64,000 nt of DNA from Ulota crispa (lineage: Eukaryota; Streptophyta; Bryopsida; Orthotrichales; Orthotrichaceae), in contig OY987244.1 in assembly GCA_963920765.1 (NCBI GenBank), positions 18,704,358 to 18,768,357 on the forward strand, given 5' to 3'. Every line of letters begins with the position of its first letter. Positions within the stretch are counted from its first letter, which is position 1. The translations under genes were made by a program, and so were the position numbers. The notes under the pieces were generated by a model that ran no database searches, had not been told where the DNA came from, and saw nothing but the letters and a program-made list of their open reading frames with translations. This document shows positions 4,715 to 64,000 of this stretch, one piece after another.

Positions 4715-5623
4715 CCCCTAAAGACCCAAAGAACCCACTTTGGGTTTTATGAGAACTCGGGCAGGTTCTATTGACTTCATAATTTGGAATTTTTTTATGA
4801 AATTTTTAGGATGGATGCACTCATCATAATTTACATGTGAAGCTTTCTTTCATGTCATTCCAATAAGCAATGCAAAAGTTATAAGGTTTTTTCAATTTCA
4901 TTGTCAAACTCGGTAGCAAAAAATATGTTCTAATATTTTTTTAATTTTTTTTTATAGAATTGCATAGATTGATACCTACTCAAAAAAAACTGAATCAGTC
5001 AATTCCAAATAATGAGGAAAGAGTTACAAGGAGTTTTCTTTTGCGGGCAATGAAGGTAGGAAGAGGGTAGAAAAGACATATAAAGTTATCTTTTACTTTT
5101 GAAAAATTACAAATGAAAATGAGAAATAAAGTTACAAATTATCTGTTAGAGCATTCTCACCATTGGGATTAACAATTTTCAGATTCTTCCAAAACTTATT
5201 AGCATACTAGTTATATCTTTCATTCATCAATACCTTTCACTTTACAATTTTTGTTTAAATGAATCCAAAGTTTTTTTTGGTTAAATTTTTTTATATATGC
5301 TTTCAACCCATTTTCCAACATATTGCAAAAATTGCACAAGAAATACAACATATGTGTTTTTTTTCTAAAAAGTTTGAAAATCAAAACTTCACCTTTTGGA
5401 AGGACTAGAAAATCCTACATTTTGAAGTTTGGGCACATTGATCTTGCAATTGGTGGGGATCTTCATTCTGAAATTTTGGGACAATGTACTTGTGCAAGTC
5501 AACCAAAGGATCCTACGGGTTGGATTTGTGAAAAAGTAAGTTTCAATGAAGATTTTGACCCTGGTTTGGGGACTAGTATTTTGAAGCAATTTTGAGCCTC
5601 TAAACACAAAAGAATTTTATGGG
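4715..5623. mobile_element. TTAA-flanked, CCC-ended element (piggyBac-like signature), beta type
   Basis: It begins CCCCTAAAGACCC after TTAA at 4711-4714 and ends TTTTATGGG before TTAA at 5624-5627. Length 909 bp. The terminal repeat is short and the right end has drifted. A 90-codon ORF at 5323-5595 matches nothing I know. Confidence 0.6.
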
Positions 5624-5627
5624 TTAA

Positions 5628-6543
5628 CCACTAAAGGATCGTTGTCCCTTGGGGGGACAAATGAGAGTTTGGGCAAGTTAATATGGCCTCAATTTTTGTC
5701 TTTATTTTTTTAAACCTTTTTTGAAGATATAAAACACATTCACTTTTGGGGAATGTAATTTTTATTCCAATCTATGCTCAAGAGCAAAGGTTATGCCCAA
5801 ATAAGCACAAATTTGAGGAGACCGGGTAGCACAAGTTTTTTCACTGAAATTTGAAACATTCCATTTAATTTTTTTCTTCTTATAGAGTGTGTTTTTATCT
5901 ACATCTGAAGCTTTTGATTCATTCCAATTGGACTAGTTATGAGAAAGTTATGGACAATCTTGTTTTTTGGGCAATTCAAGCATCTTCTTGAAAAAATAAC
6001 TTATAAAGTTCATTTTTGAATGCAAGTTTAACATTTTTTTTAAATGGTGGAAAGGGTTAATTTTGCTTGCTAGAACAATCTCACTATTGGGATTGTTGTG
6101 TTTCAATTCCATTGCAGTGTTATTAACAATTTAAGTTTTTGTTCAATCTCATACCTTCTTCTACCTAATTCTTTTTTAAGAATGAACATCAAGTACTTTT
6201 TGCTTTATTTTTTTCCAAAGATTCTCAACTCAATTCTCCACCATAAGGATTTAAACCTCCAAACTCTATGGAGCAAAAAAAATTAGTTAAAAAAGTTCAA
6301 AGGCAAGTAATTTAGTCATGCAAGGTGGAAAAGAGTTTGTTTTTTACACTTTGAACGCACATATCTTGCAATATGTGCAGTCAAAGCTTTTGAATCTTTT
6401 TTTACACATTCTTATATTAGTCTAGTACAAGATCCTATAGTTAGATATGCAAAAGACCAATTTTCAAACATTTTTACTCTTTGCCATATAAATGGCAATT
6501 TTGATAGTCTTTTGACAAAATAAAGGCCACAATCCTTTAGGGG
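5628..6543. mobile_element. TTAA-flanked, CCC-ended element, partner of 4715-5623
   Basis: The left end CCACTAAAGGATCGTTG and the inverse right end CCCCTAAAGGATTGTGG agree over about 17 bp. TTAA lies on both sides (5624-5627 shared with the preceding element, and 6544-6547). Length 916 bp, non-coding. Confidence 0.75.
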
Positions 6544-8268: not shown

Positions 8269-8693
8269 GACTCTGAAGTCTGAAGCGGGCCCACCGGCCA
8301 CGCATTGAATTTGGTCCAGAAAAAGAAGTGAATAAACAAAAACAGAGGAAAACAAACGGGAACCTCCAACCGAGAAGCGCGCGCTTGCCACAAGTTTGTG
8401 TTTGTGGTGCTGGTTTCCTGTAGTATAGTACCCCTCAATAAGTTAACCCCTGAGCGCCCAAGAGAAAGTATACTTCCTCTAGAAAATTTGAAAATAGGTA
8501 CTTAAGTCATGTTAATACGATGTACTAGAACTAGGGTACGGTGGTACGAGGGTGACATGGAGTGGGGTACCCGGGTTCCTAGTGATTATGATTGGTTTCA
8601 CATGAGTTAACTTAATTTTGTAAAAACCACAAGCTAGTGAGTGTGAGTAGGTTTCCCTAAATTGGATTTTGAGCTGGGTGCTCAGGGGTTGGT

Positions 8694-16930: not shown

Positions 16931-16943
16931 TCATTTTGTACAG

Positions 16944-17825
16944 TACCTGGAAGTATTGATACACTCATGTTTATTTTGATGTTCAAAGAACTTTGCATAA
17001 TACAGAGTAAAGTTGGCAATTTCTTACCTTACATCATGGTTTTGTAATTCTTATGTAGGTACATACAACCAAGCATGTCAAATCTTAGTTCAAAAAATCA
17101 AAATCCCAATTTTTGGTGAATTATTTTACCATCAAATTAAAGGGTTTACATAGTAATTGATTGAAAAACATTGGTAATTATTTTTTGAGACTTGATTGCA
17201 TAGATATGTAGGAAACATCCATATGCACCTTTTTCATGTTAGAAAAACACCATTAAGCAACAAGACATGATCTACAAAGAGTTCAATGTAGTTATGTAGG
17301 GTGTCCTAAGACCAAAATTTGTAAAATAAATACTTCTTTATGATCATTAGAATTTGCTATTTGACTCATACACTATGACTAACCAAAACCATTGAACACA
17401 AAACTATAGTTACCTAGCCAAAAGCTAGTGAAAAATTAGTATACATTTTTATTTTACAAATTTGGTCTTACCGCACCCTACATTGAACTCTTTGTAGATC
17501 ATGTTTTGTTACTATATGGTGTTTTTCTAAAATGGAAAAGGTGCATATGGATGTTTCCTACATATCTATGCAATCAAGTCTCAAAAACTCATTACCAATG
17601 TTTTTCACTCAATTACCATGTAAATCCTTTAAATTTTTGGTAAAATAATTCACCAAAAATTGGGATTTTGATTTTTTGGAACTAAAATTTGACATGCTTA
17701 GTTGTACCTACATAAGAATCACAAAACCTTAATGTAAGGGGGCAAGAAAATGCCAACTTTACTCTGTATTATGCAAAGTTCTTTGAACATCAAAAAAAAC
17801 ATGAGTGTATCAATACTTCCAGGTA
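16944..17825. repeat. Long palindromic foldback, arms about 380-390 bp
   Basis: The left arm 16944-17333 (starting TACCTGGAAGTATTGATACA) is the inverse of the right arm 17446-17825 (ending TGTATCAATACTTCCAGGTA) with roughly 85-90 percent agreement by eye. The spacer is about 112 bp. It is probably a foldback or long-TIR element. No target duplication was identified. A transcript would form a long hairpin. Confidence 0.85.
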
Positions 17826-17894
17826 CTTTGTAGTACAATATTATACATGGGAGTCCCACAATTTCATAGTACAAAAAGTAGACTTTGTGAGGGA

Positions 17895-25494: not shown

Positions 25495-26228
25495 GGGAAA
25501 TTTTCATAGATACCCGTGAAGTTTGCCATATTTACATAGGTACCCTTGGTTTTTTGGAAATTCCATAAATACCCTTGGATCATAACTTCCAAGCATTTGT
25601 TATGTATGCTAATTTCTTTTATGACCAATGTTAAAGACAAGAGTGCAATAGAATGGAAACAAATCAGCGTGCGCACAAGGGAAAAAGAAGTAGCATGCAC
25701 AATAGAACAAATGCTTGAAAATTATGATCTAAGGATATTTGTGCAATTTCTAAGAACTATGGGTATCTATGTAAGGGAATTGATATGTGTACCACACCCT
25801 TTCAATTACTGTACCACACCCCAAAGTAAATTTTAGATTTTTACCCTCAAAAAGCTGAATTTGAAAATTTGGAATTCAAATTTGGACTTAGAGACCATGA
25901 TTTAGTCTAAAACCACAAAAAAGTTACAATTCAACAACACCCAATGAAAAAATTTATCTTTTTTACAAACAAAAATAAAAGTAACACTTTTCTCCCTAAC
26001 TAAACTTTCTCATTGGGTGTTGTTGAATTGCAACTTTTTTTATGGTTCTAGATTAAATCATGGTCTTTAAGTCCAAATTTGAATTCCAAATTCTCAAATT
26101 CCGCTTTTTGATGTTAGAAATCTAAAATTTACTCTGGGGTGTGGTATAGTAATTGAAAGGGTGTGGTACACATATCAATTCCCTCTATGTAAATATGGCA
26201 AACTTCAGGGGTATCCATGAAATTTCCC
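25495..26228. mobile_element. MITE, GGGAAAATTTCATGGATACC family, interrupted by a MULE MITE
   Basis: The left end GGGAAATTTTCATAGATACC and the right end GGTATCCATGAAATTTCCC are inverted. Without the 409-bp insertion and its 9-bp duplication it would be 316 bp, close to the 300-bp copy at 7196. Confidence 0.8.
25775..26183. mobile_element. MULE-type MITE, copy 2, nested, with perfect 9-bp duplication
   Basis: It begins GGGAATTGATATGTGTACCA and ends with the inverse TGTGGTACACATATCAATTCCC region. Perfect TCTATGTAA lies at 25766-25774 and 26184-26192. Length 409 bp; the arms pair over about 180 bp each. A 9-bp target duplication with long TIRs is typical of Mutator-like elements. Confidence 0.9.
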
Positions 26229-27723
26229 TTAAATAATCTCTATTATTGTAATGTTGTGCATACGTTTAGTTGGTCAACTTCCACGTGTCAAATTGCAAGC
26301 ATATACAAAAGTGCATTTTGAAATTTCTTTTATTCTTACCTTTGAGGGTTGAGTGCAGACTAGGATCATCATTTATGTTGAGTTCATTGGTAATTAGAAA
26401 TTAATATGTTGTTTTTGAAACAAACAAGGATGCTGGCAATCATCAATAGTCACAAACAATTGGTCATCAAATTCACCAAGTGGCTGCCAAATGCAAATTC
26501 TTCTTAGCGAGGTTTCTAAAATTTACAAGGGGTTGGTAATTGCAAATTATTTTATGTCCTGATTCCTAAAAATGTGATAATTTGATCGTATACAATATTA
26601 CTTTTATGAATTTTAGTTCTAAAACCTAGTGCTTTTGTTCTTAATGAATGATTTTCTTTTCAAAGTCTACATGCATGCAAAGTCAAAAAAATCCTACAAG
26701 AAGGTTGGTGGCTCTAACTCTTGTTTGTAAGGCGTTTGCATGACTAGCACACTTGAAACATCATGTGCACTTTTAGTAGAAATGGTGTTGAACACACAAA
26801 AGGTTCATGAAAAGCTTTTGGTAACTTCTGTACGTAAATCCCGAGCATTTGTGTATGTGAAGCCTACTTAATATGGAAGGTAGAGACTACTACCTCTTTT
26901 GGAGCTTCTTAGAGTATGTTTTACAAAACACAAAAATCCCCATTTTTAATATCTTTTCACAACTAGGTGCTGTTGGTAATCACAAACTCTTAAACTAAAT
27001 GTGATAATGATCACAAGGACAAAGAAAACAATGCAACAACACATGTGGGGTTGAAGGAGTTGAATGTTTGATCACAACAGGGGTTGATCATTTGAAACCA
27101 AATCAGAAATCTTTCAATATTCCACTGCTTGCATGCAGTAATATCAAAAAGAGTGGTCATGTAAAAATATGCAAGGTTAAAGAAAAAAAACATGTATTGT
27201 AAATAGCATACACAATAGTAAGCAAAGCAATGGACATGGAGAGCACGGTTGTACTTCATTCTGACTCAAGGACCATTTCAGGAAATAAATAGCTTGCCAA
27301 CCAAGTCTACAGTTTGAACGAAAACATGGTCAGGATGTTGCTCCTGTTGGTATTGTTATCACCAGCCTCGGCTGCATGCCGTGTCTATGTGGAAAAAAAC
27401 TGCAGTGGTAGAATCTGGATCTAATCTCCACTAAGAATCAGAACAAAAATAATGATAAAGTCAAATAGAAGGTTACCTTGGCTAGCTAGCTAATCCACAA
27501 ACTGTGACTAACTAACTAATCGGCACTATCGATGTATACACCGTCTTATTATTTTCCTAGTACCATGAAAAGCGAAACAAACCAGCATCATCAGTGTGGA
27601 GAGCGCTTATGAACTGGCCAGACTGAAAGAGTCACCGCAACGATGGGATAGTTATCAGAATGGTCAATCTGTACAAAGGAATTGCGAGTCTTGCAGTTGA
27701 TGGTCTTGATCGAAGAAGCTCTG

Positions 27724-31815: not shown

Positions 31816-34800
31816 CTAGATCTTCTTGGTGCTGAGAACATCAAAACTCATACCATTCTTTTGCAGACGCTGTAAGTAGTCAGTCCCACTGAAAACTACA
31901 CCAGGAGTGAGCACTCCTCCTCTCGGCAAGCTGCTCCGCTCATCCAGCATGATCAAAGCTGCTTGGATAAGCACGATAGGAGTGGTGGCGTACCCGATTT
32001 CAGGCCCTGACACTCTCGTGACGATCTCCTTGTTGGGCTGCTTGCCAGGAGTCACCTGTGCGGAGTCGCTGTACCCTCGGCCCACGAAGAACATCTTGAA
32101 CGAGGCCGCTTCAATCTCCTCGTGACTGGGACCGCCCTTGTGGAACACTCCCAAAGAGAAGAGCTCCGGGTACTGGACTAACAGCTTCCGGCCCCACTCA
32201 AACTGCGCAAACAGCACCAGAATGAGACCTATGATGAACATTCCTACTAATCCCACCACGGACCTCTGCACCACGTAGCATCCGTAGTGGACTGGCTTGA
32301 TCGCTGCCCATGCGTTGTCATCAGATGGCTGCTCTTCTGCTTTTGCAAGCCCCTTGGGATTGTCCGTCAGCGTGGCGTGTGTGCGACGTACTACTGTTGC
32401 ATCCGCTGACGGAAGCCGAATTGCCCAGCCTCCAGCGTTTTCCTCCCAGTGTATCAACCCCGGTTTCTGCAATGAGCTTCCTTGAATCTGCAAAAGCAAC
32501 AACAATAATTAATGTTTACAACCTTTCGTACGACTGGGGGCTACTCTGGATTGTAAGAATCAAAGCAAGAAAAGAGCTTAAAGTTTGAACCAGCATCAGG
32601 GGGCGAGATAAGAAGCTAAGAAACATCGGTTGCACTTTGTGACACGTTTGAGGTAATGAGTGTCCAATCCAGCTTGGAAGGTTGTTGTCTGAGTATGTCG
32701 AATAGGAGTAATTTAGGTATCAACTCGACTTGGATTGGTATAAAGTTGACCTTGAACAAAACAAGGTAACATGAAGATTTTTTTTGGTTTTGCATCAATC
32801 CAGGTATAGTATTTATAATTTTCTCAAGCTTTGACTTCTAACACTCTGAATGCTCTTATCTCAGCCAGCGAATGCAAGTATAGAGAAACCAAGGTTATAG
32901 ATGATGTTTGTGAATCAGAAGTCTCGAATGAGTAGTTATTATTCTTTGAAAATTTATGATGTGAGATGTCTCATAAGGTACATTACTACACCTTCAGCAA
33001 ATTCATATCAGGAGAATATAAATAAACATCAGTTGTTCCGCATTCTTTGAGTAGTTCTTGAGAATTAGGATGTAGGGTTTAAGCCTAAGGGCAGAACGCA
33101 GCCTAACAAGTCCAATCGTTAAAAGAAGGTTGGAGTATCAAGGTGCTACACCTGCTGTATTACCGACATATGTTCAGAATGCAAGGCAGTGTAAGCTATC
33201 AATATCATAGATGGCTCAAGATATAAGTGATAGGCTGAGCTACCTAACGATCCGAAACACATGAATATTCAAGGACGACCAAATGACATGTTATAAAGGG
33301 AAGTTGGATAAAACTACCTGAAATTAGGGCTTAGGGTTAAAGAGCAAAACTCAACCAATTATTAGTCCGTTCATTGGAACGAGCTTAAGATTTCAGGGGT
33401 GCTGTAGTAACACCGACAGATCCGAAATGTGTTCAAGTAGCAAAACACAGCACAGCTACCAATGTCATCGATAGCTCAAAAAAAGCAACATATTCACAGA
33501 GATGATGCAAACAAAGTTGGAATGACCACCTGAGGTCGAGAGCGGCGGGGTCTTGATTTTCGCAACTTTTGAAGATTAGCTTCGTTAGCAACGCCGAGAA
33601 CTAAAGACTCCCACGTTCCCGTGTTCCCTTTCATGCTCTTCTCAGTAGTTTCAATCACAAGATAGGAGTCCACACTGTTGGGAACAGAAGGATACTCCCA
33701 TTGTTGTGTGTTGTGAATGATGCCAAATTCCGCTGGGATTGAGTCGTAACCGCATGCACTCACCACCAATGACCCTGCACCACGTCACGAATCTCATCTC
33801 GTCACCATCTTGCAGTCGAAAGCTCAAAAACCAAACATTCCTTTGCAAACACATGCTTTCACTCAACTCTAGTCTACCAAATCTAAGCTATAGTTCCACT
33901 TTCTATTACTTCAGTGGTCATTTCACAAGTCCTGATTTCATATTATGGTCTGATTTGAACCTTTAAAGAAGATTGCATGCATTTTTCAGTTATTAGGATT
34001 AATCACAAACATCATTCACCAATTTTTTCAGGGTTGAGCAGCTATATTGACATCCAGGCTGCCTGCCATTTTACCAACAGACTATCTAAGCTAAAGTTCC
34101 AATTTGTATTACTTCAGTAGTCATGATTTTGGATTGTGGTCTGATTTGAACCTTTTCAAGAAAAATGCATACATTTTAGGTTACTTAGGTCATTTACAAA
34201 CATCATTCTCTAATTTTTTTAGGATTGAGGAGCTTTATTGACAACCAGGCTTGCCTATCATTTTACCAACAGAATGTTTACACAATGCTTTGGTTTAGGT
34301 TAATTTGAATCTGGTTTTTATGTAAAGTAGTCCAGGAATGATATCAACCAAATGCAGTTATGTTGACCTTCTGAATACCTAAAATTTGGAAAGGGTTGAG
34401 CAGCTACATTAACAGCCAGGCTGCCTGCCATTCTACCAACAGAGTGTTTACACAATACTTTGATTTAGGTTAATTCGAACCTGGTTTTGATATAAAGTAG
34501 TCCAGGAAAGACATACACCAAATGCAGTTATGTTGACCTTCTGAAATACCTAAAAATGTGGGAAAAATTCCTTCATTTCAAAGCCATAATAAAACCAGTA
34601 AAAAGGCAATGCAACAGCAGGGACATGCAACAAACCAGTCTGAATGGCTTTCTCATGATACAAAGCCTCCATCTGCTCCATGAACTCCGGCTCTCCAGTG
34701 ATGTCGAGGTAATCCACGCCAGCCTCCACGCAGGCTTCCACAACAGGTCGGCCATACTTTCGGTACGGGCCAACGCAGCTCACGAGCACCTTGGTCTTCT

Positions 34801-35053
34801 TACAAAGAGTGATGAGCGATTCCACGCTCCCGACGTCCGCTTCGAAGATGGGAATGGAGGAGGCGAGCGAGGGGTCTCGGGAGGCCCATGTCAAAGCGGC
34901 GGCGAGTTTCTTCTTGGAGCGCCCGGCGATGGCGATCTTGCGAGGGTGGGCGGAATTGGGAGCGGTGGCGAATCTGAGCAGCTCCCGCAGCACGTACTTC
35001 CCCGTGAAACCGGAGGCGCCCAAGATGACGATGTCCACCAGTTCCTCCGCCAT
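31816..35053 (-). CDS. Saccharopine dehydrogenase-like oxidoreductase (SCPDL type), 3 exons
   Basis: Exons are 35053-34636, 33774-33530 and 32487-31816; introns are GT-AG and phases agree, giving 444 residues, the usual length of the SCPDL family. The N-terminus is a Rossmann NAD(P)-binding fold: VDIVILGASGFTG with G12, G15 and G18, then AGRSKKKL. VSCVGPYRKYG and VDYLDITGEPEFM are typical of the family, as is LVVSACGYDSIPAEFG at the exon 1/2 junction (exon 1 donates the first base of the Gly codon). A single hydrophobic segment lies at about residues 299-317 (VGLVGMFIIGLILVLF), matching the membrane or lipid-droplet association reported for animal and plant members. The substrate is unknown; true saccharopine dehydrogenase activity is not implied. 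The gene ends in STKKI. It stands alone, divergent from bL28m 2.5 kb away. Confidence 0.93.
33875..34560. repeat. Tandem duplications inside intron 1 of the SCPDL gene
   Basis: Two overlapping tandem duplications fill most of the 861-bp intron. One has a period of about 200 bp (33875-34080 and 34081-34270). The other has a period of about 171 bp (34217-34390 and 34391-34560), with units running from a TTGAGCAGCT-like start to TTGACCTTCTGAA. The last unit ends about 75 bp from the exon 1 donor. Confidence 0.75.
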
Positions 35054-35623
35054 AACTTAGTCTATGGCAGGGGTGGTGTGAGATTTGATCGAATGCAGCA
35101 GCAATTCACGAGGTTGTTTGAAAATGCGAAGAGCAGGAGGATGAGGAGGAGTAGAGTGAGCAAAGTTGAGGAGGTGGTGATGGTGCGGAGATGGTGCAAT
35201 CGGGGGAAGAATGGCGATTGTTGCGAGCAAGGACGATGGATGCGTGTGGCCGTGGCTCTGCTCGCCACTTGGAGGACCAAAGCTCATGCTCCCCCGCCAT
35301 CTCACTAAAGTACCGGTGTGAACGCAGAGCATCTCCACCGGAGGACCAAAATTTCGTCATCATTGTTGGATTTGGAGTGCTGGGTTTGGACTTTGGAGTG
35401 TTTGATTTAGGCCTTTAGGCAGTTTAGGGCATTTGCACCCTTACTTTGTCAAGAAATGGTTTTTGAATCTAATACTCATTCTAAGGTTGGTGAGTTTCAT
35501 TCTAGATTCCATTTGGTGTGTGATAATGGGCTATTTATGAGACACATTTGGTGACTATAAGTAAAAAATAAGACTTTTGAGGACTTTTCAAAAACATATA
35601 TAATTTTTTAGCAAGCTCACTTA

Positions 35624-36186: not shown

Positions 36187-37616
36187 TCATCCAATGTTTT
36201 TACTAATATAAGCTATTTTCATCCAAAATTTAGCAAATCACATGTGTGCCTAAGTAGAGATTTGGCAATTTCATCCACTTTTTCACCCAAATTTTTTAGC
36301 ATAGTGATTGTTAGGGACATTTTGAAGTAAGATTTAGGCAAAAAAATTGCCAAGAAAAAAAACCTTGTCTTTAACCCTTAAAGGCTTAAATGTCCAAGGA
36401 CATTTTTTCTCAAATAACACTCAAAACTGCCATTTTCAGATATGAGAATCCAAGATAAATAATTTTCTTCTTTTTACAATTCTAACCATAGAATCCTACA
36501 TAAGATTTATGCAAAAAGCCATTATGGTGAAAATTTCATGAAGTTTGGCTATATAAATTAAGAGATTTAATCATTTGACGTTAAAAATACATAGTTTTTT
36601 TACCCTTGCCCACCATTCTCAAACCCCTTTGATCACATGTTATGAACATTATGTGCAACATGCGTGTTGTAGGGAGTTGCCCAACATGCTCCAAATCATG
36701 TTAGGCATATTTCCACAAATTTTCAAAATCAACAAAGATGTAATAGGTTTGTGGTGTTGCAAGAGCAACCTTAGCATTACCTGCAATTAAATGAAAAAAA
36801 GTATGTATTAATGTTTGGACTTATTATAGTGTAATCTTTGCATCTCTAAGTAAAGCAAGTTTAAATAAAATCAACAACTCCATTAAGCACTAATTTTTTG
36901 TTTACAATTAACAAGATGCCTTTATAGGTGATGGCGTTGATTTGTTAATTTTGCACACTGGGAGACTCTCAATCAAATGGAAGTTAACCTTGTTGTACAA
37001 GTGAAGCTAAGGGAGGACTATTTTCCATGTCGTTGAACAAAACTGTAGCCAATAACTTTCACGTGAAGAGGGAGAAAACACATGGTAAATTCTTAAAAAA
37101 AGGTACAACATTTCCAAAATATGCCAATAGACAAAACGCGTTTGTTTTGTTTTTTCATGTGGAGAGCCCATAAATCTTGTAGGCCAAATTCTTCAATTTT
37201 CATTTTGCAATATTTGCACAATTTTATGCACTAGTATAGACTAAAATTTTGTCTTTTTTGCAAATCAAAATCCGGCTGGCCTTGCATGGAAGTTTGGCCT
37301 AACAAGTAACTCAGGTTCAAATTTTAATATTGGGGGGAGTAGTTTTTGTTGCAAAAGTGGAGAGGGAAATGCTATATCAGTATATCCTGAGCAAGGATAT
37401 GTGAGTTGTGAGCTTGGATTTTTTTTAGAATACTAAATTTCACCTACGATTGTGTACATAGGGTTATACAATTACGTATTTTAACTTTCATTGCTTGATA
37501 AAATTGTCATTTTTTAATTTCTCCATTAATTCTGAGCTCAAAATCAATTCCCGCTCACAAAATCTTGAATCACCACTCATGTCTTACGCTCAAAAATAGC
37601 GTGGTTCCCAGTGGAG

Positions 37617-38391
37617 ATGCCCTCTCTGTTATTCAAACACGGTATAGCAGGGTATCAGACCCGATTTCAATTACCTCGACCCCTGCGGCATTCCGAGGGT
37701 TTAGGGTTTGGGAGTTCGGGCGATGGCGAAGTGATTTACACGAAGCTGAGCGATTCTCTCTGGCATCGTGCGCGATTGCTTGCGTCTCTCGTCGTCAAGA
37801 TGTCTGCAGCCAGGGTGGTGATGGGCCGTGCGAAGCGGGGATTGTACGCAGGTCGCCACATTCAATTCGGAAACCAAGTCAGCGAGGACGGTGGCAACAA
37901 GTGAGTCCTTTCTCTTTCACCTTCTTTTTCCCTTTCGTTTCCATTATAACCACTTGCAGTCGATATCCAATCGTGGAAAAATCCATACTCGCATAAGCTC
38001 GGTTTTGGTACTAAACAACGGTGCCATCTGGATCCCCCGCAGATCACGCCGGACGTGGAAACCGAATGTGCAAACGAAACGGATATTTAGCTTAGGGTTG
38101 GATCGGTACATCAGAGTGAGTATCACCATGCACGCCCTGCGTTGCATCGACAAGGCAGGGGGTTTGGACGAGTATCTGCTCACCACTCCTGCACACAAAC
38201 TGGATAACGACTTAGCCCGGGAGTGGAGGACCAAGATTGCGGCAGTGTATTATAAGCTGTACAACATGGAGTTCTCCATGCTGAATGTCAAGCCTGGTAT
38301 GGAGGCCCAAGTGCCTCGACATATTCAAGCCAGGCAAAGCGGATTAACCTTAGAGCAGTTGAACACCCTAGAAGGTCGCAGTGCATCCTAA
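37617..38391 (+). CDS. Mitochondrial large-subunit ribosomal protein bL28m, 2 exons
   Basis: Exon 1 is 37617-37900 (donor GTGAGT) and exon 2 is 38043-38391; the split Lys codon (AA + A) restores the frame. The protein is 210 residues, close to the plant family length, and belongs to the large subunit of the mitochondrial ribosome. Diagnostic core: VVMGRAKRGLYAGRHIQFGN, VSEDGGNKSRRTWKPNVQ, KRIFSLGLDRYIRV, then TMHALRCIDKAGGLDEYLL and a K-rich tail region. An alternative ATG at 37800 would give 149 residues starting MSAARVVMGRA. I prefer 37617 because family members carry 60-70 residues before VVMGRAKRG and the extra segment is open. That N-terminus is poorly conserved, so the start is uncertain. 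Confidence 0.9.
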
Positions 38392-42128: not shown

Positions 42129-42776
42129 CCCCTAAATACCTGAGGCCATTTTTGAGCTTCTAGGAATTTGTTCTAAATTGGACAAAAAGACAACATTTTG
42201 ATAATTTGTATCAATTTTTAAAAAAAAATGTAATCATACAAATAAACTAGAGATGTTATAGTTTGCAGAGGAAAAGAAATTACAACAACATTACTTATAG
42301 ATTGAAAGATTATAATGTTTGATCATGAGGGTGTTAAAACTGCAAAAATGACTTGAAATCTTTCCATCCTCTTTTCAATGTTCACACATCAAAACTAAAA
42401 AGTCAGCCACCAAAAACATACAAGGTTAAGGGACATAACATATATAATCAATTTATGGCATTTCAAAATCTCTTCTACAATTTTTGAAAATTAATTTTTA
42501 TTGTAGATTTTTCTCCAAGATCTAGTGTATTTGAGGCTCATTTCCAAGAGCTCTCAAGACTACAAAAAGTCAAGATTGCAATAAAAACCCTTGCATAAAA
42601 TCTTGAATAGAAAAATCATAATTACTCATTTTCAAAATCAGATTTTTGATGCTAAAACAAGACTTCAAAAAGAATAGCTCCAAAATATAAATTACTAAAA
42701 ATAGTAATTTAGTTAGGTTATATTGAACTTCAAAGTATTTTGAACACCAAAATGTGGTGCCTCAAGCATTTAAGGG
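42129..42776 (-). mobile_element. TTAA-flanked, CCC-ended element, alpha type, copy 1
   Basis: TTAA lies at 42125-42128 and 42777-42780. It starts CCCCTAAATACCTGAGGC and its inverse right end is CCCTTAAATGCTTGAGGC. Length 648 bp. It is the inverted homologue of 49684-50315 (shared GATCATGAGGGTGTTAAAA, CAAAATGTGGTGCC-type blocks). Confidence 0.85.
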
Positions 42777-42780
42777 TTAA

Positions 42781-43689
42781 CCCTTTAGAGACCACCAAAC
42801 CATACTTTGGTTTGGGAGAGTAGTTTTTTGGCCTATACAATAAAATTGCTCAACAATTTGGAAAATGATCTTGAAGAATGCTTGTGATCACAAGAATTTT
42901 GCATCCAACCCAAAAAACAACAATAGCATCAGGCATGGGAGTTGATAAATAATGGTGTTTATACATCATGGCCTCAAAATACGTATCCATATTTGGTCAA
43001 AGATGGATCAAAGCAACAACACAATACATCAAACATCCAAGAAGAATGTCACTTTTCAATTGTGCAATCTTAAAAAAAATCAAATTGCTTAAGGAATATG
43101 CCTGTATTGTTTCTCTATACGGTAGTAGTACAAATGTAGTATTTGAGAATCTATTGAAATGATGCTATCAAATTATTAAAAAAAAAAAACCATCCTAAGT
43201 TTAAGGCCAATTCTTGATTGCTTTCATTGATCGGATTTTCCATAACAAATATCAAATTTCTTGTAGAACTGTTTTACGGTAGCAAAGAAAATGGGATTTT
43301 TGATCCTTTTTGTCCACTTAGCTACACGTTGTGATTGCTATTTTTGTCTATTTTGAATGAAACTAGTCTTGTTGGAAAGGTGGGAAACCCTGCTTTTTAG
43401 AAATGTAAGGCTCTTCTCAATCAAAGCTTGCATGAAGCGCTACCATTCAAAACCACACAAGCATGAAAAACTAGAGATTTTCCATATACGGCTCACTCAA
43501 TCATTGTAATGTTTCACCTCCAACGATAGATCTAGCTGAAATTTTGATACATTGCAACAAACAAGGTGTCCTTCACATTTGTACGGTTGGATTATGCAAA
43601 TTGGGTCCATATTTGTTTCAAATGCACATCTAATCTTATTGCCTTGGTTTCTAGTGGATTTTAGGAAAATGTGTGTGGTATTTAAAGGG
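42781..43689 (+). mobile_element. TTAA-flanked, CCC-ended element, beta type, copy 2
   Basis: It begins CCCTTTAGAGACCACC; the inverse right end is CCCTTTAAATACCACAC. TTAA lies at 42777-42780 (shared with the alpha element) and 43690-43693. Length 909 bp, identical to 4715-5623. Non-coding. Confidence 0.8.
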
Positions 43690-45030: not shown

Positions 45031-47752
45031 GTGATGAAGTGTCCGAAGATAGGTGGTACGATACATGCACCTCTTTGTAAATGTCTTTACAGTGGACGTG
45101 TAGAGACTTCAAAGAAAAACAAGGATTTAGGAATTTTTGGGTTTGCGTCCTCATTGTCGTCTGGGGCAGCAACTGTTGTTGCTTCAGCGTCCTGGTCAGC
45201 AACTGCCGCTTTGGTTGCTGCCACCATGAGTTTGGACTCTGATTGTATTATGTTGAATAGATTGTCCAATGCTGTTAAGGGTAAGGGTGTTGCAATTGAG
45301 GAGCCTGAGACTATTGTTTTAGATTCTGCTATTGCATATGTGTCACACGACTTGGCAAAAAAACTTAAAAAGAATTACAACCTGCAGAGGCACTTCCAAG
45401 ATAGTTGGGCTACTAAGTTTACGTGAGGTGAGCCTATTGTTGGGGCTAGCGGCAGTATCACCCATGTTTGTTGTAAAATTTGTACTGCAGTTGAGGGACA
45501 CCAGAAGTTGCTTGTCCCAAAAGTAGATTCGCTTTGGAAACATGCTGGCCAGAGGACATGCCCTTGCAACATTCGGGAGATTAGGAAGGGGGAGCACTAA
45601 TACTTGGGCTCTACTCAGCACATTAAAAATGAGAAACTCTTCTTTGCCAAGGGAGGGATCAAAACTTTGTTGCAAAGGGTTGTTGACAAGCTGGGCAGGT
45701 GAAAGAGCGAAGGAAGAAGACTATCCAAATGAAGGTTGTCTTCAACATTCTACAGCACGACTGTCCTATGTCCGATTATAGAGCTGTTGAAGACCTCCTG
45801 GTGCAATTGAATGTTCCAGAGCTCCCGAAGAAGCACTGGAGCAAAAGTGCCGGCTAGGACTTTGCGAATGCAATGGCGGCAGTTTGCTCCAACATGCTAA
45901 AAGTTGAAGTTAAGAAGGCAAGATTCCTTGCTCTCTCTGTTGATGAAGTCACATCCAATGATAATCAGCAATGAGAATCAGCAATGGTTAAGTATACACG
46001 TTTATACTTGTTTAAATTATGCAAGGCAATCCATGATGGCTACTATATGTCGAGTTGTAGAGGATGCCAACGCTACCAACACTTATGAGCTCATCTATGA
46101 TATGCTTGCTTGGCATGGAGGCTTAACCGCTTAAGAAATTGGAGAGAAACTTGTCTCTTTCGGGGCAGTCAGAGCATCAGTCTTTCAAGGTTAAAGGACG
46201 GGCATCACTACTCAGCTGAAATCCAAAGCCGCCCCATATACCATCACTGAGCATGACATGGCCCATAGAACTAGTCTTGCGGTGGAGGCTCTTTCCAACT
46301 TGCCAGTTGTTCAGAAGTTGGAGACCTTGTTCAAGGCTTTGTACTCTTATTTCTCGAACCCATTGAAAAGGCATTGGGAGTTCACCAAATTGGCCGAGGT
46401 TGTGGAGATAGAGGGCCTACGCATCTTAAACAAGGTTTCAACCCGCTGGATATTGCTCCTGGAGCCCCTGAAGAGAATCATGGGTGAATATAAAACCCTA
46501 ATCGTGAAGTTCTCAGAAGACTCAAACTAAGAAAGTTCTGCTCAAAAGAACCTCCTCTTGTTGTATGACATTTCTACCCTTCTTGCTTTGCCATGTTTGT
46601 TGCCACTCTTGGAGAGCATTCAAGGTTTGATAAAATTTGCTGAAAGCGGTTTTGTGTTTGTCTCTGATTTCTTGGCTGCGGTTAAAATTTGCCAAGCTAA
46701 AATCTATGAGATGTACTGTGATAGTGCTACTTCTTATAATGCTATTCATTTTCAGCTCTTCATAGATATTGTGGATAACCATTCTCACACCATTTCTCAA
46801 GAATGGATGGTAGATTTGAACAATGGAGCTGAGAGTCTATCTTTTCGGATGGCGGGGCACACGTATCCTGCCCACTGCATCCATGCTACAATAGGGATTC
46901 CAAAGCCCGTGAGCAGGATTGACTTTCAAGAGGTCGTGATGGCCGTGAAGGGGCAGTGCACGACAGCGGCGGAGCTCCTCATTTCTCAACTTGAGAAACG
47001 TTTCCCTCATTCAAACATCATGGTGGCGTTTGGGTTTGTCTTTCCCCAGTATTGGTTGCAGCCAACGTGCAACAACTTGTTCCCTTTGCATCTTCAAACT
47101 TTGAAGGAGTGGTTTTCTAAAACCAAGTCTATCTCTACCGGTGATACTTTAGGTAAGTGATTTTATGTTTTATATTCAAGAACATTATTGATTTTCAAGT
47201 GTTGGTGTTTAATAGAGGCCCTTTCTAGACTTTAGAAGTTCACATTCATTATACTAACTCTTAGTCATTGGTTGTGAAGGAGATTTGACACAGGTGGAGG
47301 CTCCCTTGGACGCACGTTGTCTTGACATTTAGGCTATGATTTTCAAGATGACCATGAAGGCAAATGCTTCCAAAGCTATGGAAGAACCATTCAACGTCAA
47401 CCCAATTACAAAGCTTTGGCAACAAGTAGGTTGCAATGTCCTGCTTCATAACAAGATCAGCGAGTATATTAAAGTAGTTGAGATCGCAGTGATGGCAGTG
47501 CTGGGGAGCGTTGAGAACAAGAGAACCTTTTTGACTTTGGCTTATTGTAAATCCAAGGTCAAGAATAGGCTCCATGGGAATCTTGATACTTGCATTCAGA
47601 TGTTTTCACAACAGTTTTATACCCTCAAAAGTTACCCATATGCAGAGGCTTTTGATAAGTGGCGGGAGGCCCGTGTGAGGATGGGGGGTGCATCATTAGT
47701 ATTTCTGTTTCCAATGTTAGACAATGTGGGATGCATGCAACGTATGGTTTGA
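45031..47752 (+). pseudogene. Broken hAT transposase with BED zinc finger
   Basis: The order of blocks follows BED-hAT proteins. A Ser/Ala-rich start at 45031 is followed by a BED finger at about 45425-45560 (WATKF, ...THVCCKIC..., LVPKVDSLWKHAG). SDYRAVEDLL and LPKKHWSKSAG come at about 45770-45860, then the first catalytic-Asp region ARFLALSVDEVTS (about 45920-45955) and HDMAHRTSLAVEALSNL with KRHWEFTKLAEVVE (46250-46400). The large helical ORF 46558-47160 comes next. A GT donor follows at 47154, and after a short intron the C-terminal hAT dimerisation region VVEIAVMAVLGSVENKRTF...KNRLHGNL...FDKWREARV (47336-47700). In-frame stops occur near 45424, 45598, 45714, 45857, 46133, 46193, 46528 and 47331, with a frame change near 45900. 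It cannot be functional. Confidence 0.85.
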
Positions 47753-49184: not shown

Positions 49185-49683
49185 TTACTTCACAACAAAC
49201 ATCTATAGGTTGCTGACTTTGAATTTTCTAAGCTATATTCTGCAAAGATCTAATAAAAGACTACGAAATAATGTGCATTAAGTGCAAACAACCAACCAGA
49301 GAGTTTTGAATGCAGAAGGCACCTGAGCATCGTGCACGTGGACATGTGGTCCACGACAAGATTCTCCAAACTGCAGTAGCAGCACTTGTAACTCATTCGA
49401 TATTGACGAGTTCACCAAAGTTCCCACCAAAGTTATTATTATGTAAATTTTTTATTTACTTTGTATGAAGATTTCAAAAAAGGGAATTGCTAAATCCACC
49501 ACAACTTTTCGCTAAATCCACCACAACTTTTTGCTAAATTCACCACAACTTTTTGCTAAATCCACCACAACTTTTTGTTAAATCCACCACAACTATTTGC
49601 TAAATCCATCACATTGTACCATACTTATGATTTTCTCAAAGAAAAAAAAGAGTAAATTTTGTATTTATTGAATGATCACTTAA

Positions 49684-50315
49684 CCCCTAAATGCATGTGG
49701 CACCAAATTTTGGTGCCCGTAGTACTTTGAAGTTCAATAAATCTAATTAAGTTGATATTTTTAGTGTTTCATATTTCAAAACTATTCTTTTTGAAGTCTA
49801 GCTTTAGCATCAAAAATCTAATCTTGAAAATGATTGATTGTAATTTCTCTATTCAAGATTTTGTGCAAGAATCTTGATGTCCCATAGCGTTGTGTGCTCT
49901 TGGAAATGAGCCTCAAATATACTAGATCTTGAAGAAAATTTTACACTAGGAATTCATTTGAAAAATAACTAAAAGAGATTTTGAAAAGCTGTAAAGTGAT
50001 TAGAGTTATGTATGTTATGTCCTTCAACCTCAAATTTTTTGGTGATCAACTTTTTAGATTCAACATACAAAAAGAGGATTGAAAGACTTCAAGTCATTTT
50101 TGCAATTTTAACACCCTCATGATCAAACATTATAATCTTTCAATCCATAAGTGATATGGTTATGTTTTTTTTCCTATGTGATCTCTAACATGTCTAGCTT
50201 GAATTTGTATGGTTATAATTTGAAAAAAAGTGATACAACTTATTAAAATGTTGACTTTTTGTTCAATTTAGAGCAAATTCCTAAAAGCTCAAAAAAGGCC
50301 TCAGGTATTTAGGGT
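49684..50315 (+). mobile_element. TTAA-flanked, CCC-ended element, alpha type, copy 2
   Basis: TTAA lies at 49680-49683 and 50316-50319. It begins CCCCTAAATGCATGTGGC; the right end is GCCTCAGGTATTTAGGG. Length 632 bp. It lies inside element 1. Confidence 0.85.
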
Positions 50316-50319
50316 TTAA

Positions 50320-51086
50320 CCCGTAAAGGACCAAAGAGCCCAATATGGCCAAATGGGGTTCTTGGAGGTGTAAAAGTATACTAAAAAGACATTGCAGGCT
50401 CAAGTTTTGGTCTGTCACTCAAGTCTAAATGGAGCTAAAAGTCCAACAAAACTTTTGGATTGGCTTGTTATTCCTTGAAACCTCTAGATTTTGCACCCAA
50501 GCATTTGAATTTACTATTTTTAATATTAAAACTATTAGTGGGAGTGTATATAGGCATTGTACATTGCATTGTTGATGGAGGAGTTTTGGATGGGATGGGT
50601 TGGAAGCCCACACTCCCATGCATAGGGGAGAAGGTTGGTGATGTGTCACTTTTTTTTCTCTCAATTGGGCAAGGTTTTTGTAGCTCTAAAGTAGTGAGCC
50701 AGCTAGATCCGCTTACTTTGAATGACCATAAATTTTGGATTTTTTCCCATTCAAGGAATTTTTTTTCCATCAAGTATAGCTAGACACAATCTCATGGGAC
50801 CAACCATTAGGTAGTTTTCTTTTTTGAAAAAAATCACATCAAAGTCCAAAATCCATATTGTGAATTGCTACCCAAGTTAACAAATATGAGATTCTCAACT
50901 GTGGGGATTTTGCAAATTTACTTCGATTTGAAATCAGACTAGCCTTAAACTTTTGATTTGTAGTTGGATATAGAATGACCGGGTTGGATTGTGTGAATAC
51001 TTGTTCAACTTTCTAAAAATTGAGGGAATGTATTGAAGGTTCCATATTGGAGGTATGCTAAATTTTTGTAGCAAGACACTTAGGGG
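50320..51086 (+). mobile_element. TTAA-flanked, CCC-ended element, beta type, copy 3
   Basis: It begins CCCGTAAAGGACCAAAG after the shared TTAA and ends ACACTTAGGGG before TTAA at 51087-51090. Length 767 bp. ORFs at 50460-50783 on both strands match nothing known to me. Confidence 0.75.
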
Positions 51087-51376
51087 TTAATAATAATAGC
51101 AAATGTATTCCACTATCTTTTCTTTACTTTTTTTAGAAGACTTTTTTGTTCTTCTTTCTTTTCTTTATCCACTCTTATCTTTCTTCTCCCTTTTAATTGA
51201 CTTAACTTCCATAACTTAAAGTATATGATATCCTAAAATAAACATGATTACCATCATCACTAAATGGTCATTCACTAAATAAAATAGTTGCTTTTTTTAT
51301 TTTAAGAAATCCTAAAAACAATACAATCTAATGGATTTAGCAAAAGTGTGGTGAATTTAGCAATTCCCTAAAAAAA

Positions 51377-51859
51377 GGGAATTGCTAAATCCACCACATC
51401 ACACCATTTATAGGAGTTTCATAAGAAAAGAAGGGCAAATTACATGATTACTGGATGACCACTTAATGATAAAAGGAAATGTATTTATTCTAAGATTATA
51501 AGTGTTCAAGCATATGAAAGTTAAACCAAGTAAAAAAATGAAGAAAATGAAGAATCAATAAAAAAAAAAAAAAAAAATGGGAAAAGTGGGTAATTGTGTA
51601 GTAAACAAATATGCTTTCAATGGTCATTTGACAAAAATGAAATTTGCCCTATTTTTCTTTATGAAATTCTTAAACATGGTGCAATGTGGTGAACTTAGGA
51701 AGAAGATGTGGTGGACTTAGGGAAGAAGGTGTGGTGGACCTAGGAAGTAGGTGTGGTGGACTTAGGAAGAAGATGTGGTGGACTTAGGGAAGGTGTGGTG
51801 GACCTAGGAAGAAGGTGTGGTGGACTTAGGAAGAAGGTGTGGTGGATTTAGCAATTCCC
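51377..51859. mobile_element. GGGAATTGCTAAATCC element 2 with an expanded right end
   Basis: The ends GGGAATTGCTAAATCCACCA and inverse GGGAATTGCTAAATCCACCA are essentially perfect. Eight bases (TAAAAAAA) separate it from element 1. The right arm is amplified into about seven units of AAGAAGGTGTGGTGGACTTAG at 51690-51850. It keeps the uninterrupted CCACTTAATGATAA site. Confidence 0.85.
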
Positions 51860-51869
51860 CAAAAAAAAC

Positions 51870-57513: not shown

Positions 57514-57739
57514 CCCTTAAACGACCATAGGGCATAGTATATATGTTGATGTATAATTGTCATTTGCTACCAATAAGAAATTGTAATTTGGGATCTCAAG
57601 TAGCTCACTAGAACGGCATTGATCTATTCTCTAACTTCTTTGTTGATCTCAAATATAGTAAAAGTGTGGACCCATTCCAATTACAAAAAAAATATCCCAT
57701 ATTGTATTGATTGCAAAGGGCCTTTCAATTGTTTAAGGG
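57514..57739. mobile_element. Small TTAA-flanked, CCC-ended element
   Basis: TTAA lies at 57510-57513 and 57740-57743. The ends are CCCTTAAACGACC and inverse CCCTTAAACAATT. Length 226 bp. Confidence 0.7.
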
Positions 57740-60600: not shown

Positions 60601-60610
60601 TAGGGAACGA

Positions 60611-60997
60611 CTAGGAAGACACCCCCAGTTGCTAGGGAGACACCCCTATAATTCAACCTATTAAATTTGAGATTATCATTACGTTGAAATATGAAATAAA
60701 ATCAAAACAGTATTTTAGCGCACATTTGCACCTGCAAGCATTGCAAACATACAACAAATATGTCTTATTTGTGACATGGTCAAGAGCTAAACTTACAAAC
60801 AAATGGAATGCCTAGTTTTAACTCTTGATCATGTCACAAATGAGACATATTTGTTGTATGTTTGCAATGCTTGCACTTGCAAATGTGCACTAAAATATTG
60901 TTTTGATTTTATTTCATATTTCAACGTAATAATAATCTCAAGTTTAGTAGGTTGGGCTATAGGGGCGTCTCCCTAGCAATTGGGGGATGTCTCCCTA
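60611..60997. mobile_element. Palindromic foldback element, arms about 175 bp
   Basis: The left end CTAGGAAGACACCCCCAGTT and inverse right end TTAGGGAGACATCCCCCAAT. The arms remain complementary inward (ACATACAACAAATATGTCT and inverse) to a short spacer near 60805. No target duplication was confirmed. Confidence 0.8.
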
Positions 60998-61378
60998 ATC
61001 GGGAGGATGCAAGCTAAGGGTGACTACTATGTAAGTCACAAGGGTAAAAATGAAGGGTTTTTTAGCAAATGGATTTAGTTTCATTGAAAAATGAAGTCTT
61101 TAAGAGAGAAAGGACTCATATTTAGAAAGTAGACTTGTTGATGATCCAATTTCCACCAAAATAAAGTATATATCTCTAATGTGATAAGAGAAAAGGACTT
61201 TTGAACATAGCTCCTAAAACCGTCACTGTGCCTTTTCTTGCTAAAAAAGACTCTTGAAGTTATATGTACTCATATTATGGGCACAATTTTTTGGCATCAT
61301 TATTGGAGGATTGGGATGATTACAATTTGGAATAAGTTTTTAGTGAATGTAATTTACATTTTGGAGAAAAGGACTTTT

Positions 61379-61905
61379 ATGTGCTCTTAAATGACTCCAA
61401 TTTGTGGCCCTTTTTGGGGATTGAATTCTCTAAGTTAAATCATTTTTTTGGTTTCTTTCTTTACTTAAATGTCTTAGAATGGCATTAACTAGGGTGCAAC
61501 CTTTGGAATTTGGAACTCTCATTGAGAAGAGGGAGAATTCTCATTGGTAACACAATGTGCTCTTGAATGACTACAATTTCTGGCCCTTTTTTGGGCATTG
61601 ATTTCTCTAAGTTAAATCATTTTTTTGTGTGTTTTCCTTCTTCTAAGTGTCTTAGAATGGCATAAACTAGAGTGGCCAACCTTTGGAATTTGGAACTCTC
61701 ATTGAGAAGAGGAAAAATTCTTGTTGGGAACACAATGTGCTCTAGAATGACTAATTTTTTTGGAGATTGATTTCTCTAAGTTAAATCATTTTTTTTAGTT
61801 TTTTTTTTACTTAAATGTCTTAGAATGGCATAAACTAAGGTGGCCAATTTTTGGAATTTGGAACTCTCATTGAGAAGAGAGAGAATTGTCATTAGAAACA
61901 CTAAA
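61379..61905. repeat. 177-180-bp tandem repeat, three units
   Basis: Units start at 61379, 61556 and 61736 with TGTGCTCT(T/A), and contain TTTCTCTAAGTTAAATCATT and GGAATTTGGAACTCTCATTG. The third unit is shortened by internal deletion. Confidence 0.9.
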
Positions 61906-62748
61906 CACTTTGTTTTGTACTAAAAAAAGGATTTTTTTTTGCCACAAATGAGAACCCTTAGCTTGCAACTCCCCATTCATTCCCTACAAATAACATTCAT
62001 CCTATATAGACTAACTTGATGTTCCTTTGAGAAGGATTTGGCAGGTTTATCCTTTTTTCACCTAAGATCTTTTTCTTGGTTTTGTGGTAGCATATGTTAA
62101 AATGAGGCAAGGTTTTATCAAAAGTTTGCCAATTATAATTGAACCCCTATATGCTCAAAGCACGAAATTTTGGTGTTTAGGAAATTTCAAGAAACTTTGA
62201 AATCCTGTTGAAGGCAAAGATTTGATTGTTTTAAGGTTTTTTTTGGAGAAGTTGCTAGTTGAGGTTAGCTTTGGTGTTCAATTTTAATGCCTTCCACACC
62301 TTATTTCAATTGTTTTGGTGGAAGCTAAATTGCAAGGACACCTATTGCGCACCAAATAGTGTGATGAAAAGTGACTATGCAAAACCTATAATAAGTTGCC
62401 ACGTTGAAAAAACAAGCATCAAGTTGAGATTGAAGTCAAGATTTCCCTTGGGCATTCCCATGGGCAATGGGGGTCCTTTTACTAAAACTTTGTCATCTAA
62501 CAAAATCTAAATGCGTTTTTGTGCTAATTTCACTTGGAATGGATTTATTATACATATTTGAATTCATGCACAATTGAATTTTCTTTGGTTCATAATTATT
62601 TTTGGTCAATAATGGAGTTAAAAAAACTCTTTGCAACATGTGGTAGCTCTTTGACAATTGCATTGCTAGCTCATATATGATATTGTGATCATGGATTTGG
62701 AAGAGGGTCATTAGTTTTGAAATAACAACAACAAACACTAAATCATCT
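61906..62748. other. Gene-free stretch with a worn alpha-like end
   Basis: TTGAACCCCTATATGCTC at about 62139, followed by CGAAATTTTGGTG, resembles the start of the alpha TTAA elements. The ORF at 62259-62510 (83 codons) matches nothing known to me. Confidence 0.4.
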
Positions 62749-63063: not shown

Positions 63064-63441
63064 TTAAGTGGTTTTTCCCATTTTTGTACACAAAAGTTGC
63101 CTTTTTTGCATTAGAATTGTTGGACGGCTAAAAACACCAAAAATTCCACATTCATCCACATTTAATCACTAATATACTAAAATATGCGTGACCTATTTGG
63201 AGGTTTTTTTGGTAGCACCATCTAAAAGTCTTGAAGTTCAAACCCTATGGTTTCAATTTTGTTTTTGATGCATTTGGACTCACCTTTAAATTGCATTCAT
63301 ATTACTAATATCCCTCCTAACACCAAGTGTGAACATACCCTTAACTCAAAAAACCAAGAAAATGGATGATGAAAAAACATGCAAGTGCTTACAAGAGGCT
63401 ATTTCCTTGTAGCAATGGCTCAATTTTTGCTTGGTTTTTAA

Positions 63442-64000
63442 CCCCTCACCGCCCAAGGGGACCAAAACTATCTCTGCTTGTTTGCAATTTTGGATTTATA
63501 AATTTCCTCCATGATTAATTACAATGATTATTATTTTTTAAGTTCTTGTTGAGGTCTTGTTTTAGTATCAAGAGTTTGATTTTGAAAATGACCAATTATG
63601 ATTTTTCTATTTAAGATTTTGTGCAAGGGTGTCCATTGCAAATTTTCACTTTCTAGTATTGAGGGCTCTTGGACACGAGTCTCAAGTACACTAGAACTTG
63701 GAGAAAATACTACATTAGAAATTGATTAAAAAAAATTGTAGAATAGATTTTGAGAAGCTATAAATTGATTGGGGTTATGAATATTATATTTTATATATTC
63801 ATGTTTTTGAGGTACCCTCAATTTTAGATTTGAGATGTGAAAAGAGGATTGAAAGACTTCAGATCAATTTCACAATTTTAATACCCTCATGATCAAATCT
63901 TTTAATCTTTTAATCCATAAGTGATATTGTTAAGTTTTCTTTTCCCATGTAATCTTTAACATGTCTAGCTTGAATTTGTACGGTTACATTTTTAAAAAAA
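63442..64000 (+). mobile_element. TTAA-flanked alpha element, copy 3, cut by the window edge
   Basis: TTAA at 63438-63441, then CCCCTCACCGCCCAAGGGG. It aligns with 49684-50315 from about 63560 onward (TTTTGTGCAAG, TACACTAGAACTTGGAG, AGGATTGAAAGACTTCA, ACATGTCTAGCTTGAATTTG). The right end lies outside the window. Confidence 0.75.

Follow-up and report, generated by a model that had tools for sequence, protein, structure and literature searches.

TTAA elements, probably old, non-autonomous and moved by a piggyBac-type transposase, in a 64-kb window of apparent land-plant DNA

Main

The systems closest to the elements described here are the piggyBac superfamily and other transposons that insert at TTAA. 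The hallmark of piggyBac is TTAA combined with CC[C/T]T (PMC2872659), and CACTA, CCCTC, CCCTT and CCCAT are given as conserved starts of its elements (PMC10813416). TTAA elements can also occur in tandem, as in the CMITEs of corals, where the arrays consist of highly similar units and are ascribed to slippage (PMC2872659), and TTAA is not the mark of piggyBac only: it is also the target of Kolobok-type elements, whose ends start with AG in Xenopus (PMC6004289). For land plants, a 2023 review counts PiggyBac as one of seven angiosperm MITE superfamilies (PMC10004981), and PiggyBac rows appear in the draft repeat tables of the fern Ceratopteris (1230 / 122417, 0.00; PMC6890710) and of Stipa (1 / 75 (bp), 0.00; PMC8319324). 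The first-pass annotation calls such elements rare or unreported in land plants, which goes too far in view of the angiosperm MITE list and the Ceratopteris table; among the titles and abstract openings of the literature matches listed, a coverage from which subscription journals are mostly absent, none concerns a TTAA/CCC family from a land plant outside the flowering plants.

In this work, we analyse a stretch of 64,000 nucleotides of apparent land-plant DNA (the window) that contains elements with a TTAA target, one related empty site and full-length relatives bounded by TTAA, in which there is no recognisable coding sequence. Seven elements with two ends (alpha1, beta, alpha2, gamma, delta1, delta2 and epsilon) account for 5007 bp (about 5.0 kb of 64 kb), and partial ones come in addition (Table 1). 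We consider it likely that these are old, non-autonomous (MITE-like) elements that were moved by a TTAA-specific transposase, probably of piggyBac type.

Table 1 Coordinates of the TTAA elements, their shared or duplicated target sites and the fold-back elements in the window.
Feature	Position	Strand	Description
delta1	4715..5623	+	909-bp TTAA element; TIR match 8/14
TTAA common to delta1 and delta2	5624-5627		shared single copy
delta2	5628..6543	+	916 bp; diverged relative of delta1, in the same orientation; TIR match 12/14
zeta	36375..36673	-	delta-type end at TTAA 36371-36374
alpha2	42129..42776	-	second full alpha copy; 79% identity to alpha1
TTAA common to alpha2 and gamma	42777-42780		shared single copy
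gamma	42781..43689	+	909-bp TTAA element; TIR match 12/14
E1	49482..51368	+	fold-back element with GGGAATTGC ends and 22-bp array; host of the insert
TTAA, left copy of target duplication	49680..49683	.	read in sequence; duplication-length fit
alpha1	49684..50315	+	632-bp TTAA element, non-coding; at its left end a palindrome, 16-34 nt inwards
TTAA common to alpha1 and beta	50316..50319	.	read in sequence
beta	50320..51086	+	767 bp; single copy in window; TIR match 8/14
TTAA, right copy of target duplication	51087..51090	.	read in sequence; duplication-length fit
E2	51377..51859	+	sister of E1; related empty site CACTTAATGATAA near 51460-51472
epsilon	57514..57739	+	226-bp solo TTAA element; TIR match 10/14
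alpha3	63442..64000	+	third alpha copy, truncated by window end; TTAA on left

Results

A TTAA-flanked insert and its related empty site

Two neighbouring fold-back elements, E1 and E2, have GGGAATTGCTAAATCC as their ends and each contain 22-bp tandem arrays. E1 is split at CACTTAA by a 1.4-kb insert composed of alpha1 and beta, so that it reads GATCACTTAA, insert, TTAATAATAATAGCAAATGTATT, whereas the homologous place in E2 is uninterrupted (GACCACTTAATGATAAAAGGAAATGTATT). With the insert and one TTAA removed, E1 aligns with E2 over 106 columns across the junction (74.5%, E value of 4.5e-12), and the 23 bases from the right-hand TTAA match E2 at 87% (chance P(>=20/23) of 4e-8). When duplication lengths of 0-8 bases were compared at this site, 4 bases (TTAA) gave the best fit (34/52 identities), with 0 bases (31/52) and 3 bases (29/52) as the runners-up. 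This confirms what had been proposed in the first-pass annotation, that two elements were inserted into E1 at TTAA with the empty site kept in E2, and the paralogous site likewise bears out the duplication of TTAA that it had claimed. As E2 is a sister copy rather than the same locus, it provides a related empty site and not an allele. The joined flanks of the delta pair, of alpha2-gamma, of epsilon and of zeta found no match over the junction within the window; a weak junction-spanning match for the joined flank of delta1 alone (E value of 0.008) was delta2's own inverted end and was discarded.

E1 and E2 are separated by 8 bases (TAAAAAAA, 51369-51376), and the outer flanks of the two together are CAAAAAA (49475-49481) and CAAAAAAAA (51860-51868). 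Given these flanks, E1 and E2 may together be a single compound element whose target duplication is A-rich. A search with the end shared by E1 and E2 returned 0 matches in genome contigs, and one with a DNA pattern of the alpha core 0 matches in viral contigs.

Families delimited by homology

The limits of alpha are set by a second full copy 7 kb away: the homology between alpha1 and alpha2 (49680-50319 to 42780-42125) runs exactly from TTAA to TTAA, by which alignment alpha is an independent unit. The right end of alpha1 is ACCCTAAA, one mismatch from CCCCTAAA. In alpha3, whose TTAA starts at 63438, the terminal sequence differs from that of the two other copies. A profile search also recovered two decayed alpha relics, at 26882-27206 (E value of 2e-15) and at 62139-62294 (E value of 1.6e-3). 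The latter starts with TTGA followed by CCCCTATATGC and has kept, by eye, most of the subterminal palindrome described below; found by homology and flanked by TTGA, it counts against strict TTAA flanking.

The region 8443-8692 may contain a further element of 242 bp (8447-8688), with the ends CCCCTGAGCGCCCAAGAG and CCCCTGAGCACCCAGCTC, TTAA on its left flank and TTGG on its right. The left end of alpha3 (CCCCTCACCGCCCAAGGGG, 63438-63461) is closer to the ends of this possible element than to those of alpha1 and alpha2. A relationship between alpha2 and the 8443 stretch (z of 8.2) was dropped, the alignment being gappy and the ends not anchored.

The two delta elements align with a score of 211, compared to 54 ± 6.8 for shuffles, over a span that reaches from TTAA to TTAA plus three extra bases at the left. 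A delta profile identified zeta (nhmmer E value of 6e-7), for which a second end was searched for and not found; its link to delta2 (z of 6.2) was retained because zeta ends at TTAA and matches the delta profile, and a relation between gamma and zeta (z of 4.8) was dropped. Also dropped was a common family of beta, gamma and delta1, suggested by a right-end motif seen by eye, as no pair exceeded z 4 against 20 shuffles. Since beta occurs once in the window, its limits are taken from its ends and the flanking TTAA only.

TIRs in the piggyBac superfamily measure about 12-19 bp. Over 14 bp, the left and right TIRs of the seven elements agree at 8, 8, 10, 11, 11, 12 and 12 positions, and the weak TIRs of beta and delta1 (8/14 each) count against our preferred explanation. 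Alpha1 and alpha2 diverge at about 21% of aligned sites, and the delta pair scores 211 compared to 754 for the alphas, over a greater length. By these measures the insertions look old, and the sequence of this window holds no signs of present activity.

End motif and target site

The motif TTAACCCNTAAR occurs 11 times in the window and in none of 30 Markov simulations (0 in each), and TTAACCC is found at 19 sites over the two strands, compared to 6.2 ± 2.0, and at most 10, in 30 simulations with a second-order Markov model. Named-element ends account for 14 of these 19 sites and the possible further element for one (8443), which leaves four outside named elements (19836, and the right-hand sites 6060, 21845 and 33340), a point against our preferred explanation. 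Among 24 CCCNTAAR sites, 11 are preceded by TTAA and at most 2 by any other four-mer, and inverted end pairs (at least 10/14, starting with CC) are found 5 times at the 397 TTAA sites, one of them being the outer pair of alpha1-beta, and 0 times for each of seven control four-mers.

The base preceding TAACCCNTAA is T in 11/11 cases, compared to a TAAC background of 129/410 (31%; P of 3e-6). Because TTAA equals its own reverse complement, any one insertion could also be assigned a shorter target; if that target were TA or TAA, the base before TAACCCNTAA would be free to vary, and its constancy argues against both and for TTAA. These end-pattern tests use a motif that was prompted by the original observation, and most ends were found through a pattern containing TTAA; the alpha and delta copies, and only these, were found also by homology, which is independent of that motif. 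Taken together, the related empty site, the TTAA limits of homology, the constant T and the confinement of inverted end pairs to TTAA make TTAA-specific transposition well supported.

Across the 16 ends counted, 15 start with CC, 14 with CCC (the right end of alpha1 and the left end of delta2 depart from it) and none with two purines (0/16). CC[C/T]T fits only 6/16, and CCCC is commoner in this window, which speaks against our preferred explanation. The plant telomere repeat, too, is CCCTAAA; a telomeric origin of the ends was rejected, as there is one unit per end, inverted between ends and placed at TTAA. Elsewhere in the window, at 23776-23818, lies an array of about six CTAAACC units with 78% matches; CTAAACC is the plant telomere heptamer in another register.

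Coding content and other features of the window

Pfam searches with 18 frames that cover the three paired loci, and with the 62 stop-to-stop ORFs of at least 90 aa in the window, detected no transposase; of these ORFs, 60 were scanned directly and two, inside beta, through the 18-frame scan; coding pieces shorter than 90 aa were covered at the three paired loci only. We therefore read the elements as non-autonomous. Two matches below the cut-off were treated as chance, a zf-C2HE at 47264-47605 and a bacterial family in a frame of 49684-51086 (E value of 0.059), and Rfam gave 0 matches at gathering score.

The Pfam matches in the ORFs of the window are PF03435 and PF00830. A host gene at 31819-35056 (31.8-35.1 kb) has a saccharopine dehydrogenase NADP-binding domain (PF03435) in the exon 34553-35056; we take the exon 31819-32508 to belong with it, and the gene presumably resembles Arabidopsis At5g39410. 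At 37822-38388 there is a mitochondrial bL28-type exon, matched in the PDB by two chains at an E value of 1.3e-26, of which one bears the Arabidopsis locus name AT4g31460, then by a group at 1.2e-11 and by the rest at 3e-8 or weaker. We take the window to come from a land plant, probably not a flowering one. Three long stretches (16942-17827, 25774-26184 and 60608-61001) are 84-87% identical to their own reverse complement and are perhaps other fold-back elements, and a 168-bp unit forms a three-copy tandem array at 61379-61901.

Elements paired at a shared TTAA

Six of the seven elements lie in pairs with a single TTAA between the partners: alpha1-beta, alpha2-gamma and delta1-delta2. In simulations that presume equal access to every TTAA site, which is possibly wrong, at least three adjacencies among seven insertions at 397 TTAA sites arise with P of 7.5e-5. 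So improbable an outcome of random TTAA insertion would be explained if each pair formed one long element that contains a GGGTTAACCC-like palindrome in its interior, and the outer ends of alpha1-beta do match better (10/14) than beta's own two ends (8/14). Even so, we regard this as improbable. Alpha adjoins beta by its right end at one locus and gamma by its left end at the other, hence alpha1-beta and alpha2-gamma do not descend from a single compound ancestor; the visible left end of alpha3 has no partner; and delta1 and delta2 are two complete elements related to one another. The pairing may reflect a preference for inserting next to the end of another element, or movement of both partners together.

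A second feature is a palindrome 10-44 nt inside the left end of alpha1, beta, gamma, delta1 and delta2 (5/7), with none at P <= 0.0225 at the other end. In zeta it lies at the sole known end, which is the homologue of the delta right end, whereas those of delta1 and delta2 are at the left. Compared to 4000 random windows, 6/16 ends have a stem at P <= 0.0225 if mismatches are tolerated, and with perfect stems 5/16 reach P <= 0.02; alpha2, alpha3 and both epsilon ends miss the threshold. Judged by folding energy, zeta is ordinary (P of 0.31), and low values are seen for the five left ends (P <= 0.041) and for the right end of alpha2 (P of 0.033). The stem sequences differ even between the relatives delta1 and delta2. 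Because the palindrome was tested post hoc, after the pattern had been noticed, a recognised structure at one end is a lead only.

Both features could belong to a plant TTAA group whose transposase prefers a TTAA at the border of a member inserted earlier, which would let unrelated members stack end to end and move as compounds, and in which a palindrome of changing sequence is kept 10-44 nt inside one end, where its structure may be recognised. We put this forward tentatively and consider it possible but rather unlikely.

Discussion

In the mechanism we favour, a transposase encoded elsewhere would recognise ends of the CCC(C/T)TAAA type, excise the element and join it into a TTAA that is thereby duplicated. 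The enzyme would be of the piggyBac (DDD) type, and the host a plant that possesses it. The three tandem pairs could have arisen by later insertion into the TTAA flanking an existing element or by two neighbours moving together. Of the proposal in the first-pass annotation that a piggyBac-like or unnamed TTAA-specific transposase acted here, the TTAA specificity has held up, through the empty site, the limits of homology and the constant T; its piggyBac part is a matter of the ends only. As no transposase was found in the window, we infer piggyBac membership from those ends.

The superfamilies that could otherwise account for the elements differ in what they predict for target and ends. Kolobok-type elements share the TTAA target duplication seen in this window and are on record in green and red algae (PMC9587614); their ends have the form 5'-RR...YY-3' (PMC9587614) and here 0/16 ends start with RR, which makes them very unlikely, and piggyBac would appear to be the better fit of the two, by ends only. 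Still less probable is a Tc1/mariner-type element with a TA duplication and ends that start with ACCC: the palindromic TTAA does let one insertion be read as TA, ACCC...GGGT, TA, but a target of TA only does not predict the T found before TAACCCNTAA in all 11 cases against a background of 31%. PIF/Harbinger (Tourist-like) elements are among the angiosperm MITE superfamilies and make TAA or TTA duplications (PMC10004981), both of which are contained in TTAA. At the single related empty site, however, a 3-bp duplication fits less well than one of 4 bp (29/52 compared to 34/52), a TAA target does not predict the constant T before TAACCC, and the ends would become asymmetric. Tourist-type ends, moreover, usually start with GG, and we hold this origin to be just as improbable as a Tc1/mariner one. 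Sola3, another user of TTAA, is a possible alternative superfamily.

We retain the piggyBac-type reading. The 5.0 kb of two-ended TTAA elements in 64 kb stand against near-zero PiggyBac content in two plant repeat tables (PMC6890710, PMC8319324). Should the source genome be as densely populated throughout, a TTAA-specific transposase would have been highly active in a plant for which one is hardly described, and pairs that share a TTAA would make insertion beside existing elements countable genome-wide.

Among known systems, the PiggyBac MITEs of angiosperms and the PiggyBac row of Ceratopteris are alike in representing the TTAA-class superfamily in land plants, a comparison made by listing and not by sequence (PMC10004981, PMC6890710). 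Kolobok elements and the T2 MITEs of Xenopus have the TTAA duplication in common with the elements described here (PMC9587614, PMC6004289) but have ends that start with AG or RR instead of CCC. The coral CMITEs (Acropora) are TTAA MITEs whose ends resemble those of piggyBac; they form tandem arrays, and one pair of alleles differs by the presence of the element (PMC2872659). In this window, by contrast with the similar units of the coral arrays, alpha shows no relation by score to beta or gamma, and delta1 and delta2 have diverged. With the piggyBac superfamily and its TTAA MITEs, the elements share the TTAA duplication and, in the MITEs, the lack of coding sequence, and to some degree they resemble them in the CCC starts seen in many members and in short imperfect TIRs (PMC2872659, PMC10140906, PMC10813416). 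Unlike known piggyBac elements, they have CCC[C/T]TAAA-like ends with CCCC the commonest start and no transposase in the scanned window, and they combine an apparent land-plant host with three TTAA-sharing pairs and a one-end palindrome in 5/7.
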